Part shown: positions 40,729 through 45,204 of the stretch, piece after piece
Layout: each line of letters opens with the position of its first letter
How positions within the stretch are numbered: the stretch's first letter is position 1
Assembly (NCBI RefSeq): GCF_029504735.1
Contig: NZ_JAQFIP010000010.1
Span: 62,001-126,000 of the forward strand
DNA from: Ereboglobus sp. PH5-10
GTDB lineage: Bacteria; Verrucomicrobiota; Verrucomicrobiia; Opitutales; Opitutaceae
Length of the DNA stretch: 64,000 nt
Direction of reading: 5' to 3'
Made by a program: the position numbers and the translations under genes
The notes under the pieces: model-generated
The model's database searches: none
Told to the model about the DNA's origin: nothing
Seen by the model: the letters and a program-made list of their open reading frames with translations, nothing else

Positions 40729-43700
40729 CTATCGCTTGAAGAACGAATCGAGCGCGTTGAGACTTTTTAGCGGGGCGGATTTTTTTCCGGGGGAGGGCGT
40801 CATTGAAATGAGCGGCTTGGGCGAGGGCGCCGCGGCGGGGGCGGGCGCGGCGGATGCGCCGGACGGAGGCGCGCCGGTTTTTCTCAGCGCGGCCAGCGCG
40901 CGGTCGAGCTTCACGGCGGAGACGGGCTCGGCGGTGCCGAGTTCCTGCGCGAAGAGGCTCACGCGAAATTCCTCGACGAGCCAGCGGAAGGTTTGCGCCT
41001 CGGGGCGCGGATCGGCGGCGAGCGACGCCGCGGCTTTTTCGTAGGGCGCGAGTTGCTTGGCGCGCTCGGCGTCCTTCGCGGGGTTTTGTTTGTGGCGTTC
41101 GGCGCGCAGGCGCATCGCCTTCAGGTAGCGCGGAAATTGCGAGAGGCGTTCGAGCGTGACGGACGGGTCTTGCAGGAAGTTTTCCGAAATGAGCGAGGCC
41201 GCGTCGCGCGCGAGCGTGGCGTGCGCGCCGGGGAGGACTTGGAGCGTGACGCGCGCGGTGAGGATTTCGCGAAGCAGTTCGGTGAGGCGCGGGATGATCG
41301 TGCGCACGTCGTGCGTGGCTTGCGTCGCGGCGGCGGCGAAGGCGGATGCGGTGAGCGCGCGCACGCGCGCGGGGTCGCAGATGTGGCGGCGCAGAAGCGC
41401 GAAGGCGCCGGCCTGGAGTTTTTCAAAGGAGAGAAAGGAGGCGGCGAGCGGGGCGAGGGCGCGGAGGCTTTTGGCGAGGTCGCGCTCCGTCCAGGCGAGT
41501 TCGTATTTGAGGTGGAGCTCGAGGAGGCGGAAGAGGCCGCGCCGGGTTTCCTCGCGCGCGGTTTCGGGTGTGCGAAAGAGGCGGAGGGAGACGCCGTCGT
41601 CGGGGGGTGGCGCGGCACGGGCGGCCCGTCCGTGTGGTTTGTGCGGCATGGGCGAACCGCCCATGTTTTTGATCTTTGCATTTTCCAAACCCACGGGCGA
41701 GTCGCCCGTGCCACTCAAACCGATGCACAATCCCGGATACGCCTCGACGGGGACGCCGGCGAGGTCGCCGATGATGATGCGCTCGGGGATGTCGCCGAAG
41801 GCCCATGTTTCGGCGGGCGGTTTTTCGTGGCGCTTGCGCGCGCGTTTCCACATGGCGGGATCGTCGCGCGAGACAGCGGCGCTGACTTCGCGGGTGCGGG
41901 CGCCGAGCGCGGCGCGGATTTCATCGAGTTCGCGGCTGGCGCAGATTTCCCCGCCGTCGTCGTCGAGCACGCGGACGCGGACGCGGAGGTGGTCGGGCGG
42001 CGGTTTTTGCGCGAAGGTGACGACGGGGATTTGTATATTGAAGCGCTCGGCGATTTGCGCGGCAAGGGATTCGGCGATGGTTTCGCGGCGGCCTGTGAGG
42101 CGGTCGCGCGAGGTGATTTGCGCGGCGAGCGTTTTCGCGGTTTCGGCGAGGGGCATGAACGCGCGGCGGAGTTCCTTGGGCACGGCGCGCAGGTGGTGCT
42201 CGACCTTGGCTTCGAGGTGCCCGGGCACGGCCCAGTCGAGCGCGGCGGGCGTGAGCGCCTCGGCTTCGCGGATGTTGACTTGGATGGTGACGCCGTCGTC
42301 GGCCTGGCCGGGTTTGTAGGCGTAGGAGAGCGGGAGAGCGCGGTTTTCGAGGGGGACGGTTTCGGGGAAGGCGAGGGTGTCGTGCCGGAGTTCCTCGGGC
42401 GCGCGCAGGTCCTCGATTTGCATTTCGAGGAAATGCGGGTCGCGCGGTTTGCGTTCGCGGACGAGGGTGATGAGTTCGGGGACGGAGGACACGGAGTGCG
42501 GTGATTCATCACCGCTTTTGACGGCGGGATTTATCCCGTCGCTTCCGGAAGATTGCGGACCGATGAATCGGCCCGTCGAAAGCGGCGATGAATCGCCGCA
42601 CGCCAAACGCCCGGCGTAAAAGCGGTAGACGCCTTCGTCGAGGTTCATGTAGCGGTTGTCGCGGGCGCGGGTGAGCAGGTCCTCGACTTTTTCGCGGATG
42701 GCGCGGTTGTGGATGAGGAAGTCGAAGGGCCAGGTGATGGTGTCGTTGACGAGCGCTTCGCGGATGAAGATTTCGGTGGCTTCGCGCGGGTTGATTTTGC
42801 CGTAGCCGACGGCGTGGGTTTCGAGTTCGAGTCCGTGGAGGCGCGTGCGCTGCTTGACAAGGACGCGGCCTTTTTGCCCGTCCCAAAAGGGTTCGCTGTG
42901 GGTGCGCTTGAGGAGGTGCTCGCCGAGTTCGATCGCCCATTGCGGGTCGATGCGGGCGCAGGTGCGCGCGTAGAGGCGCGTGGTTTCCATGATCTCGGCG
43001 GCCATCAACGCGGCGGGGGACTTGGGCGCTTTTTTGTTGCGCGCGTCGTTGCCGCGCGTCGATGACGCGTCTTTTCGTTTCGGTTCGTCGCGGGTGAAGA
43101 GGACGGAGCCGGGGAAGATCGCGACGCGGCGGTCGTGCGTGGATTTGTAGCCGCCGCGCTCGTCGTCGCGGAGCGCGATGTTGCCGAGCAGGCCGGAGAG
43201 GATCGAGCGGTGGATGGCGCGGTAGGCGGGCGTGCCGTAGTGGAGGGGGACGCCGCCCTCGCGCGCGAGGCGTTTGGCGTCGAGTCCGTCGGCGACGGAG
43301 CTGGGTTGCTTGCGAAAGTCGTTGCGGGTGGTGAGGACTTCGAGGAGTTGCGCGTGGATGTCGCGCCATTCGCGCATGCGGGTGTAGCTGAGAAAATGCT
43401 CGCGGCAGAATTTGCGCAGGCGCGACTGGGTCATCGTCTCGAACTGGTCGTGAAAGGTTTCCCAGATGTTGAGCAGCGTGAGGAAATCGGAATCGGCGTG
43501 GGCGAAGCGGCGGTGCGCGGCGTCGGCCTGGGCTTGTTTTTCGAGGGGGCGTTCGCGCGGGTCCTGGATCGAAAGGCCGGCGGCGATGATGGCGACTTCG
43601 CGCACGCATTTTTCCTTGCGCGCCTCAAGGATCATGCGGCCGACGGTGGGATCGACGGGAAGGCGCGCGAGCTCGCGGCCGATGGGGGTGAGAGAAGAGG

Positions 43701-45204
43701 CCGGAAAGCCAGAGGCCAGAAGGCCAGAGACCAGAGTGCCAGAGGCCGGAGTGCCAGATGTCGGAGAAGTAGATGTCGGAGGGGCGGAGTGGTCTGTCTT
43801 CTGGCCTTCTGGCCTCTGGCTTTCTGGCACTCTGTCCTCTGGCCTTCTGGCTTCTTCCAGCGCGCCCAGCTCTTCCAATAACGCGTAGCCGGCGCGGATG
43901 GATTTCGCGGCGGGCATGTTGATGAAGGGGAAGCGTTCGATGTCGCCGAGGCCGAAGGCCTTCATGCGGAGGATGACGTCGGCGAGGTTGGCGCGCTGGA
44001 TCTCGGGCTGCGCAAAACGGGGGCGGTCGTTGTAGTCGTTTTCCGAATACAGGCGGACGCACACGCCCTCGGCGACACGGCCGCAGCGGCCCTTGCGCTG
44101 GTCGGCGCTTGATTGCGCGATTTCCTCGATGGGGAGGCGGCGCGTGCGCGCTTGCGGGGCGTAACGGCTGACGCGCGCGAGGCCGGTGTCCACGACGAAG
44201 CGGATGCCGGGAATGGTGAGCGAGGTTTCGGCGATGTTGGTCGAGATGACGATTTTGCGGCGTTGCGTGGGTGCGAAGACGCGCTGTTGCTCGGTGTTGG
44301 AGAGGCGCCCGAAGAGGGGGATGATTTCGCAGTTTTTCAGGCGCGCGCTGGCGGAGCGTCCGCGGCCTTCGAGGAGGTCGGTGGTTTCGCGGATGTCGCG
44401 CTCGGCGGGCATGAAGACGAGGATGTCGCCTCCCGCGCCGGTGTCGGTTTCGCGGACGATGCGCTCGACGGCCTCGACGGCGCCGTCGATGTAGTGGAGC
44501 GCCTCGGCGCGGGCGTTTTTGTCGTTCTCGTCGGAGGCGGAATCGGAGCCGAGGTCGTCGAGCGGGGCGTAAATGACTTCGACGGGATAGGTGCGTCCGG
44601 AGACTTCTATTATCGGGGCGTCGTCGAAGGCCTTTGAAAACATCTCCGTGTCGATGGTGGCGGAGGTGATGATGATTTTGAGCTCGGGGCGCTTGAAGCG
44701 GAGGTTGCGGAGGTGGCCGAGGAGGAAGTCGATGTTGAGGGAGCGCTCGTGCGCCTCGTCGAGGATGACGGTGTCGTAGGCGCGGAGCATGGGGTCGCTC
44801 TGCACCTCGGCGAGGAGCATGCCGTCGGTCATGAACTTGATGACGGTGGCGCGCGAGGTGCGGTCGTCGAAACGGATTTTGCAACCGACTTCGCGGCCCC
44901 AGTTGACGTTGAGTTCCTCGGCGACGCGGCGCGAGATGGAGAGCGCGGCGACACGCCGGGGTTGCGTGCAGGCGATTTGGCCGCGCGAGCCGCGCCCGGC
45001 GGCGAGGCACATTTTGGGGATTTGCGTGGTTTTGCCGGAGCCGGTTTCGCCGGCGAGGATGACGACTTGGTGTTGCGCGATGGCGGCGGTGATTTCGTCC
45101 GCGCGCGCGCTGATGGGCAGTTCCGGCGGAAACTCCAGGCGGAACGGGAAGGGCGTTCGGCCTTCGGCGGGCGGTTGGGATGAATCTGGGAGGTTTTCGG
45201 TCAC
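40729..45204 (-). CDS. hrpA: HrpA-type DEAH-box ATP-dependent RNA helicase
   Basis: A 1,491-residue DEAH/RHA helicase, longer than typical HrpA (about 1,300). Walker A is GETGSGKT at residues 52-59, DEAH at 149-152 in VILDEAHERSLNIDFLLG, SATIDTEMF (motif III) and TNIAETSLTIPGIRFVVDTG plus QRKGRCGR (motifs V and VI) are all intact. It also has the HrpA-specific C-terminal region. Three stretches of compositionally odd sequence are inserted in frame, each coinciding with palindromic DNA repeats: residues 444-503, 868-902 and about 1155-1190. HrpA-type helicases unwind RNA and help rescue stalled ribosomes. It stands alone, divergent from the gene at 45341 with short inverted repeats in the gap (45205-45340). 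Confidence 0.93.
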   Translation of the reverse strand: MTENLPDSSQPPAEGRTPFPFRLEFPPELPISARADEITAAIAQHQVVILAGETGSGKTTQIPKMCLAAGRGSRGQIACTQPRRVAALSISRRVAEELNVNWGREVGCKIRFDDRTSRATVIKFMTDGMLLAEVQSDPMLRAYDTVILDEAHERSLNIDFLLGHLRNLRFKRPELKIIITSATIDTEMFSKAFDDAPIIEVSGRTYPVEVIYAPLDDLGSDSASDENDKNARAEALHYIDGAVEAVERIVRETDTGAGGDILVFMPAERDIRETTDLLEGRGRSASARLKNCEIIPLFGRLSNTEQQRVFAPTQRRKIVISTNIAETSLTIPGIRFVVDTGLARVSRYAPQARTRRLPIEEIAQSSADQRKGRCGRVAEGVCVRLYSENDYNDRPRFAQPEIQRANLADVILRMKAFGLGDIERFPFINMPAAKSIRAGYALLEELGALEEARRPEDRVPESQRPEGQKTDHSAPPTSTSPTSGTPASGTLVSGLLASGFPASSLTPIGRELARLPVDPTVGRMILEARKEKCVREVAIIAAGLSIQDPRERPLEKQAQADAAHRRFAHADSDFLTLLNIWETFHDQFETMTQSRLRKFCREHFLSYTRMREWRDIHAQLLEVLTTRNDFRKQPSSVADGLDAKRLAREGGVPLHYGTPAYRAIHRSILSGLLGNIALRDDERGGYKSTHDRRVAIFPGSVLFTRDEPKRKDASSTRGNDARNKKAPKSPAALMAAEIMETTRLYARTCARIDPQWAIELGEHLLKRTHSEPFWDGQKGRVLVKQRTRLHGLELETHAVGYGKINPREATEIFIREALVNDTITWPFDFLIHNRAIREKVEDLLTRARDNRYMNLDEGVYRFYAGRLACGDSSPLSTGRFIGPQSSGSDGINPAVKSGDESPHSVSSVPELITLVRERKPRDPHFLEMQIEDLRAPEELRHDTLAFPETVPLENRALPLSYAYKPGQADDGVTIQVNIREAEALTPAALDWAVPGHLEAKVEHHLRAVPKELRRAFMPLAETAKTLAAQITSRDRLTGRRETIAESLAAQIAERFNIQIPVVTFAQKPPPDHLRVRVRVLDDDGGEICASRELDEIRAALGARTREVSAAVSRDDPAMWKRARKRHEKPPAETWAFGDIPERIIIGDLAGVPVEAYPGLCIGLSGTGDSPVGLENAKIKNMGGSPMPHKPHGRAARAAPPPDDGVSLRLFRTPETAREETRRGLFRLLELHLKYELAWTERDLAKSLRALAPLAASFLSFEKLQAGAFALLRRHICDPARVRALTASAFAAAATQATHDVRTIIPRLTELLREILTARVTLQVLPGAHATLARDAASLISENFLQDPSVTLERLSQFPRYLKAMRLRAERHKQNPAKDAERAKQLAPYEKAAASLAADPRPEAQTFRWLVEEFRVSLFAQELGTAEPVSAVKLDRALAALRKTGAPPSGASAAPAPAAAPSPKPLISMTPSPGKKSAPLKSLNALDSFFKR
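41647..41710. repeat. Intragenic paired palindrome in hrpA
   Basis: Two hairpins, CATGGGCG/CGCCCATG (41647-41665) and CACGGGCG/CGCCCGTG (41692-41710), each with an 8-bp stem and 3-nt loop, are separated by 26 bp. Read on the coding strand they give GTGDSPV...MGGSPMP, inserted in frame in the C-terminal part of HrpA. Confidence 0.85.
42498..42599. repeat. Intragenic multi-hairpin repeat in hrpA
   Basis: A 102-bp element with mini-hairpins built on a GAT-GA-ATC core: GCGGTGA/TCACCGC (42498-42515), CCGAT/ATCGG (42560-42571) and GCGGCGAT/ATCGCCGC (42582-42599), with a less perfect one between. 102 bp equals 34 codons, keeping the frame of HrpA. Confidence 0.85.
43698..43858. repeat. Intragenic inverted cluster of degenerate 7-8 bp repeats in hrpA
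   Basis: The left part (43698-43765) repeats units like AGGCCAG, AAGCCAG, AGACCAG, AGTGCCAG; the right part (43801-43858) is the inverse (CTGGCCTTCTGGCCTCTGGC). Together they form a large imperfect inverted repeat that encodes Pro/Ser/Gly-rich low-complexity sequence in the middle of the helicase. Confidence 0.8.

Follow-up and report, generated by a model that had tools for sequence, protein, structure and literature searches.

A GTGG-tagged, REPIN-like element read in frame within hrpA of Ereboglobus, and RAYT genes lying in the open frames of host genes in its relatives

How two matching hairpins come to lie in the reading frame of a conserved helicase, and why they are kept there, is the question raised by one gene in the window, by which we mean the whole 64-kb stretch of Ereboglobus sp. 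PH5-10 DNA that was analysed. The open reading frame concerned (40729..45204, minus strand, 1491 aa) matches the ATP-dependent RNA helicase HrpA (TIGR01967, 1138 bits; cut-off 723), has the Pfam domains DEAD, Helicase_C, HA2_C, OB_NTP_bind and DUF3418, and carries three palindromic in-frame inserts. A preliminary description had reported two hairpins with 8-bp stems and 3-nt loops in a helicase gene, and both are present: the first in the direction of the gene, with the tag GTGG upstream, at 41692..41710 on the minus strand (CACGGGCG-AGT-CGCCCGTG), and the second, in the opposite orientation and with the degenerate tag GCGG, at 41647..41665 on the plus strand (CATGGGCG-AAC-CGCCCATG). That description overlooked a third hairpin with an imperfect stem, also tagged GCGG (41616..41634, plus strand), as well as two more palindromic inserts elsewhere in hrpA. 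All three hairpins match our repeat model R1 (49.6 bits for 41692-41721 on the minus strand, 40.1 for 41636-41665 and 35.9 for 41605-41634 on the plus strand), and the element, hereafter F1, therefore extends over about 41605..41721 (minus strand) as a REPIN-like array of three REP units, occupying 39 codons at HrpA site 1 (residues ~1162-1200). As had been claimed, the 1491-aa frame stays open through the hairpins; the peptide there reads ...GLSGTGDSPVGLENAKIKNMGGSPMPHKPHGRAARAAPPP..., with GLSGTGDSPV at the entry. The number of perfect 8-bp/3-nt hairpins in the window (five) is unremarkable by itself, since 100 first-order simulations averaged 1.96 and reached up to five, and the two matches to the core GGGCGNNNCGCCC within the window were reached by 9 of 100 shuffles. 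A close pair of hairpins with matching arms occurs once in the window and in none of the 100 simulations.

The hairpins of hrpA are one copy of a dispersed family of GTGG-tagged REPs. A BLAST search of the organism's own genome (G000, 3.58 Mb) with a 101-nt query returned 51 matches at E<=10, the query's own locus among them, and the core GGGCGNNNCGCCC was found at 61 places compared with 15 for the pattern read backwards. R1 gave 78 matches at E<=0.1, of which 42 were at E<=3.5e-4, in a search that scored 150 of 6054 candidates, so that these counts may be low; as R1 was itself built from 39 such units, the independent evidence for dispersal is that of the BLAST and core-pattern counts. Weak single matches in G000 (e.g. 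C7:87552, C11:112872, C5:19474) were excluded from the list of elements. The 39 aligned units give a consensus of about GGATYGRGTGG followed by CAYGGGCG-NNN-CGCCCRTG, in which 97.7% of the stem cells are paired (91.7% in shuffles) and two-sided changes affect 20 cells (5.3 in shuffles) but only two stem pairs, a number no higher than in shuffles (195 of 500 reach it). The tag GTGG is borne by 33 of 39 units in G000, 20 of 22 in the congener G001 and 66 of 74 in the congener G002, summing to 119 of 135 full-length units. A short palindrome (8-bp stem, 3-nt loop) with a terminal tetranucleotide tag is the form of a REP, and the copies are moderately many (the 42 of G000 at the stricter threshold, 165 in G002 at E<=0.01). 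The extragenic location of REPs is not the rule in G000, where 14 of 17 hand-defined elements are intragenic. At E<=0.01, R1 matched 11 of 38 genomes including its own, namely all four Ereboglobus (54, 28, 165 and 79 matches, the 165 being those of G002) and seven others of the same family, and none of 13 genomes from other families. When grouped into 66 clusters, units occurred in both orientations in 39, singly in 22 and as same-orientation groups in five, and no target-site duplication or excision footprint was recognised at the insertions.

Comparison of HrpA proteins shows that F1 is absent from site 1 of the aligned homologues. Our alignment comprised 75 rows, 52 of which have sequence at site 1; with the window and its own copy set aside, none of the remaining 50 carries the F1 peptide, and 45 of the 50 have 24-25 residues there compared with 63 in the window. 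HrpA of G001 is 93% identical over the whole protein and is 54 nt shorter at site 1. A second palindromic insert, F2 (42494..42602, minus strand; site 2, residues ~868-904), is unlike F1 in sequence and has no other copy in the own genome at E<=1e-3, while the region of a third (43694..43855, minus strand; site 3, residues ~451-504), a heptamer-like inverted repeat, is dispersed, with 29 match rows elsewhere in the own genome, many of which are two-strand matches of one palindromic place. The occupants of these sites differ among the congeners: sites 2 and 3 hold, respectively, F2 and a CCAGAAG-type repeat in G000, and F1 and a GTAGGGCG-type inverted repeat in G002, whereas G001 has a GAATGCG-type repeat at both, and site 2 of G003 holds F1-like hairpins. 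The loops of the nearest named HrpA record, from an Ereboglobus metagenome-assembled genome (L120), are equal to those of G002. To judge from these sequences, hrpA is a landing place for different inserts, and its loops would be tolerant of them. An AlphaFold2 model of residues 640-1440 (mean pLDDT 79.6, pTM 0.54, 32 sequences) predicts F1 to be a disordered loop, with pLDDT<50 at F2 and F1 (residues ~870-901 and 1165-1201; model segments 231-262 and 526-562) and confident structure on both sides of each; other low-confidence segments of the model are 58-91, 93-104 and 299-301. The suggestion in the preliminary description that this is a mobile or amplifying element tolerated within proteins, for which it proposed a genome-wide nucleotide search and a check of HrpA homologues, is thus supported by both the recurrence in the genome and the insert-less homologues.

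Its comparison with the palindromic elements of Rickettsia holds insofar as both are translated in place; the tag, the stem and the candidate RAYT association would place F1 in the REP/REPIN class. Rickettsia palindromic elements, compared here by description as cited in the available text of PMC3733652, share palindromic in-frame insertion into genes of likely functional proteins, and differ in belonging to another clade and in that neither a GTAG tag nor a RAYT link appears in that description. As to known REPs, the portions of PMC3116915 (2011) at hand describe an inverted REP pair as the unit, RAYTs near their own REPs and single-copy RAYTs, all of which appear to have counterparts here, whereas the REPs described there are predominantly extragenic and most G000 elements are intragenic. 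A parallel comes from the family itself: Opitutus terrae belongs to the Opitutaceae. Intragenic translated REPs were published in 2013, with the GTAG type most numerous in O. terrae and its GTAG-20 elements mostly GTGG-tagged (PMC3733652). In the text of that account as available, these REPs resemble F1 as tagged short hairpins that form inverted dimers and are translated in ORFs, and the two sets also share double insertion in one gene and repair-gene hosts; F1 may be akin to GTAG-20, to judge from the text description. Those portions of the text mention no fixed entry frame and no RAYT in a host ORF (PMC3733652). The element in hrpA is by itself, then, a new case of an already known phenomenon, and the embedded RAYTs considered below are the wider find.

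All of the 14 intragenic elements of G000 lie in coding-like open frames, in frame in conserved genes. Besides HrpA, 13 hosts have Pfam support and were named from their Pfam domains: a Nuo antiporter-like subunit, NuoG, two lipoyl acyltransferases, two RND pumps, a U32 peptidase, DnaE, a PDDEXK protein, a histidine kinase, a CoA-activase-like protein, MutL and PurH, with Pfam domains spanning the element in PurH, the histidine kinase and DnaE. The frame of entry was determined with the coding phase taken from the codon usage of 330-nt flanks, the element itself being left unused, on the 66 clusters (G000 16, G001 11, G002 39, with G003 excluded; the 29 loci from G002 and 11 from G001 are best-scoring R1 rows). 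The analysis took 99 of 107 unit matches, the rest being overlapped, partial or gapped, and one element judged among the 17 (C1:1086 in G000) is absent from it. It yielded 24 in-frame clusters (G000 10, G001 4, G002 10) and three shifted ones, with 35 lacking two coding flanks and four having short flanks. All 24 in-frame clusters enter in frame 0, and with four G000 elements that failed the flank codon score and were added by hand on Pfam support the figure becomes 28 of 28 across the three congeners. Among these 28 copies, 17 are open in three frames, 10 in two and one in a single frame, so picking uniformly from the open frames would produce this outcome with a probability of 10^-11.1; the pairs L010/L219 and L005/L228 look like common insertions, which reduces the independent events to at most 26. 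A real exit frameshift was found at L220 (G001), where entry is in frame 0 and the gene is out of frame afterwards, whereas L235 and L226 were rejected as phase shifts, the former sitting past the gene end and the latter having its frameshift upstream of an in-frame element. The one-frame rule is not universal, for hrpA of G003 reads its F1-like hairpins in a different frame, as RASRP. Clusters in frame within genes are a minority outside G000 (4 of 11 in G001, 10 of 39 in G002), and it may be that, after activity was lost, extragenic copies were eroded and intragenic ones held by coding constraint. A separate open frame of 2099 aa in G002 (L241, C22:12600-19600) contains four separate in-frame F1 elements.

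We consider it highly probable that F1 is a RAYT-spread, GTGG-tagged REPIN-like element that is kept in hrpA as translationally transparent, and that whole RAYT-REP units are kept likewise. F1 would be a three-unit member of a REP family of Opitutaceae near Ereboglobus, spread by a RAYT (REP-associated tyrosine, HUH-Y1, transposase) acting on single-stranded hairpins; having inserted into an hrpA loop, it would have been kept because entry in one frame is read as a Gly/Ser/Asp/Pro-rich linker (GSSGTGDSPV), with the host frame preserved and the fold spared, and selection on the peptide would fix the entry frame. That the inserts are instead ordinary repeat-rich variable linkers, immobile and arising by slippage or local duplication, might be suggested by the HrpA and alaS loops, which differ in both length and sequence across the family, but seems scarcely credible to us given that one 30-nt unit with inverted pairing, a conserved stem and mostly GTGG recurs in several congeners, in unrelated genes and outside genes, which slippage does not account for. 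A domesticated element, whose peptides or mRNA hairpins serve a selected host function, would agree with the single entry frame of 28 out of 28 copies though 17 are open in all three, and with sites that look common to G000 and G001 (MutL, U32 peptidase, RND pump). It is very unlikely, however, as the host enzymes are unrelated, sister species hold unrelated inserts in the equivalent HrpA loops, and tolerance alone already predicts a bland linker frame. The single frame might also come from the insertion machinery through a target-site rule in place of peptide selection; C directly precedes the element in 24 of the 28 copies, so a site preference may exist, but C would be common at third codon positions of this GC-rich coding DNA, and both the RASRP reading in G003 and the VGWHGLPARG reading of the REPs beside a RAYT embedded in menF use other frames, leaving this explanation unlikely. 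Our preferred reading thus remains that of an element tolerated as a translated linker.

The own genome has eight PF01797 matches, and F1 stands beside none of these loci, L047 having partial matches only (13.7 bits); a RAYT of the own genome adjoining F1 was thus rejected, and the G000 copies are either orphans or were moved by another RAYT. Three of the eight (L047, L048, L051) are bracketed by inverted repeats of other kinds. L048 (G000 C3) and L051 (G000 C4) are free-standing RAYTs between long GTAG-containing inverted repeats, and the flanking repeat of L051 resembles the GTAGGGCG-type insert at hrpA site 3 of G002. Among 42 RAYT loci of relatives, some of which are one place counted twice, L212 of G002 is the only one with strong R1 matches, and these lie on both sides of the RAYT. 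Its REPs, GTGGCACGGGCTTCCAGCCCGTG and kin, have the tag and stem of F1, but a loop of TTCCA or ATCCT compared with GACTC. The RAYT of L212 is on these grounds the best candidate transposase for F1, which it may have moved.

The L212 RAYT has no stop of its own and lies inside a 770-aa open frame, the N-terminal part of which aligns with menF of congeners and the C-terminal part of which is isochorismate synthase; this is the copy whose REPs are read as VGWHGLPARG. An equal arrangement of 800 aa occurs in another genus (G007), with repeats similar by eye to those of L212, and G000, G001 and G006 have no RAYT in menF. In G000 and G001, another RAYT lies in frame in ORFs of 731 and 744 aa, with a creatininase domain on each side of it, a place where G002 and G006 have none. 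The alaS of G002 (1145 aa; L301, C37:117870-121304) likewise holds a RAYT, and no second alaS was found in that genome, which is 96% complete; further cases are L339 of G068, L340 of G106 and L342 of G042. The unit is located in a loop before the LYDTYGFP motif, the length of which varies much in relatives, and the alaS match runs through a RAYT in at least five of 120 family genomes (G000, G002, G042, G068, G106), representing four genera, while among the matches listed the alaS frames or loops of the congeners G001, G008 and G052 are too short for one. The alaS halves of G000 end at two contig ends (C18, C19) in poly-C/poly-G at the embedded unit, which is probably an assembly break at the hairpins. 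Beyond the family, HsdR of G031 (another family of the order, 1253 aa) contains a RAYT with host domains on both sides, and weaker cases, with the host part recognised on one side only, come from G003 (an HsdR-like ORF) and from G009 (a methylase-like ORF, whose host match, at E 0.005, is below its cut-off). At the level of the assembled sequence, then, open frames run through the embedded RAYTs, and each has hairpin repeats of its own type on both sides by eye. These RAYTs score 38.9-78.7 bits against NF047646, all below the cut-off of 80, and pass the PF01797 cut-off of 23, so the RAYT label rests on PF01797, the motifs and the flanking repeats. A Y..NP-type motif with the catalytic tyrosine is present in 20 of 22 chosen RAYTs, and the H-V-H motif in 22 of 22, the latter having been the handle by which ORFs were picked.

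For the RAYT part, simple counting gave a dN/dS of 0.12 in the creatininase pair, at a dS of 0.31, and of 0.13 in the alaS pair, at a dS of 0.97, ratios that indicate purifying selection on both RAYTs. The corresponding value for the menF RAYT was rejected as dS is saturated, as was that for the N-terminal part of AlaRS against G000 (0.725), where the G000 locus starts at a contig end in poly-C. In a tree of the 22 RAYTs, which were chosen by us and for which the tool gave a long-branch warning, the alaS group is recovered as a single clade (100/99), and four changes, two of them forced by strong branches, are required to explain the label 'embedded'. RAYT identities roughly track those of the AlaRS C-terminal part, and AlaRS of G001 is 95-99% identical to that of G000 yet lacks the RAYT insert. 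Our reading is that the alaS RAYTs may be old insertions that were later lost in some genomes, in preference to repeated insertion at one site.

The host-RAYT fusions would be translated whole. It is conceivable but doubtful that they are not fusions in the cell and that re-initiation, bypass or removal yields host protein and transposase separately: a foreign domain of ~150-200 aa in AlaRS should burden the enzyme, and the menF-embedded RAYT has an in-frame TTG close to its start, but in menF, creatininase, alaS and G031 HsdR the frame of the host is preserved before and after the RAYT and no stop interrupts it, and these four two-sided cases count against bypass or removal, which would not require a kept frame. 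Inteins are mobile units that are also kept in frame in essential genes with an enzyme on board. The embedded RAYTs are unlike them in that no intein family was matched in these ORFs (Pfam and NCBIfam, the latter covering the best 25 of 28 matches for the two isochorismate synthase ORFs) and in that the insert is expected to remain in the protein.

Returning to insertion as a translated whole, entire RAYT-plus-REP units would persist in the same manner as F1, as stop-less in-frame insertions that include the only alaS found in G002. Whether RAYT-REP units of Opitutales can more generally live as translationally transparent elements, and persist by embedding, is a view to which we give even chances of being right or wrong. 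A transposase without its own stop, and often without an obvious start, would become an in-frame domain of a host protein such as the essential AlaRS; the host gene would express it, and only an in-frame deletion would remove it. This would go some way towards accounting for the persistence of a single-copy RAYT together with its REPIN population. Intragenic REPINs such as that in hrpA would represent this mode of life on a small scale. A transposase placed in frame in an essential enzyme would be immune to loss by ordinary knock-out mutations. How the RAYT-REPIN association escapes extinction is asked but left unanswered in the available portions of PMC3116915, where an addiction system is one of the proposals; embedding makes part of that question testable. 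Some of the relatives' RAYTs are stop-less in host ORFs, unlike the RAYTs described there.

We found no report of a RAYT embedded in frame in a host ORF in our searches of the CC-licensed PMC literature. One survey, in the text available, discarded unexpectedly long RAYT-containing proteins as fusions or annotation errors (PMC6006769), and our data suggest that such proteins deserve inspection before they are set aside. Core enzymes appear, as far as sequence can tell, to bear peptides coded by mobile DNA, namely HrpA, DnaE, MutL and PurH, and AlaRS in relatives. G003 has 42 Y1_Tnp matches at 65% completeness, compared with 6-8 in its congeners.
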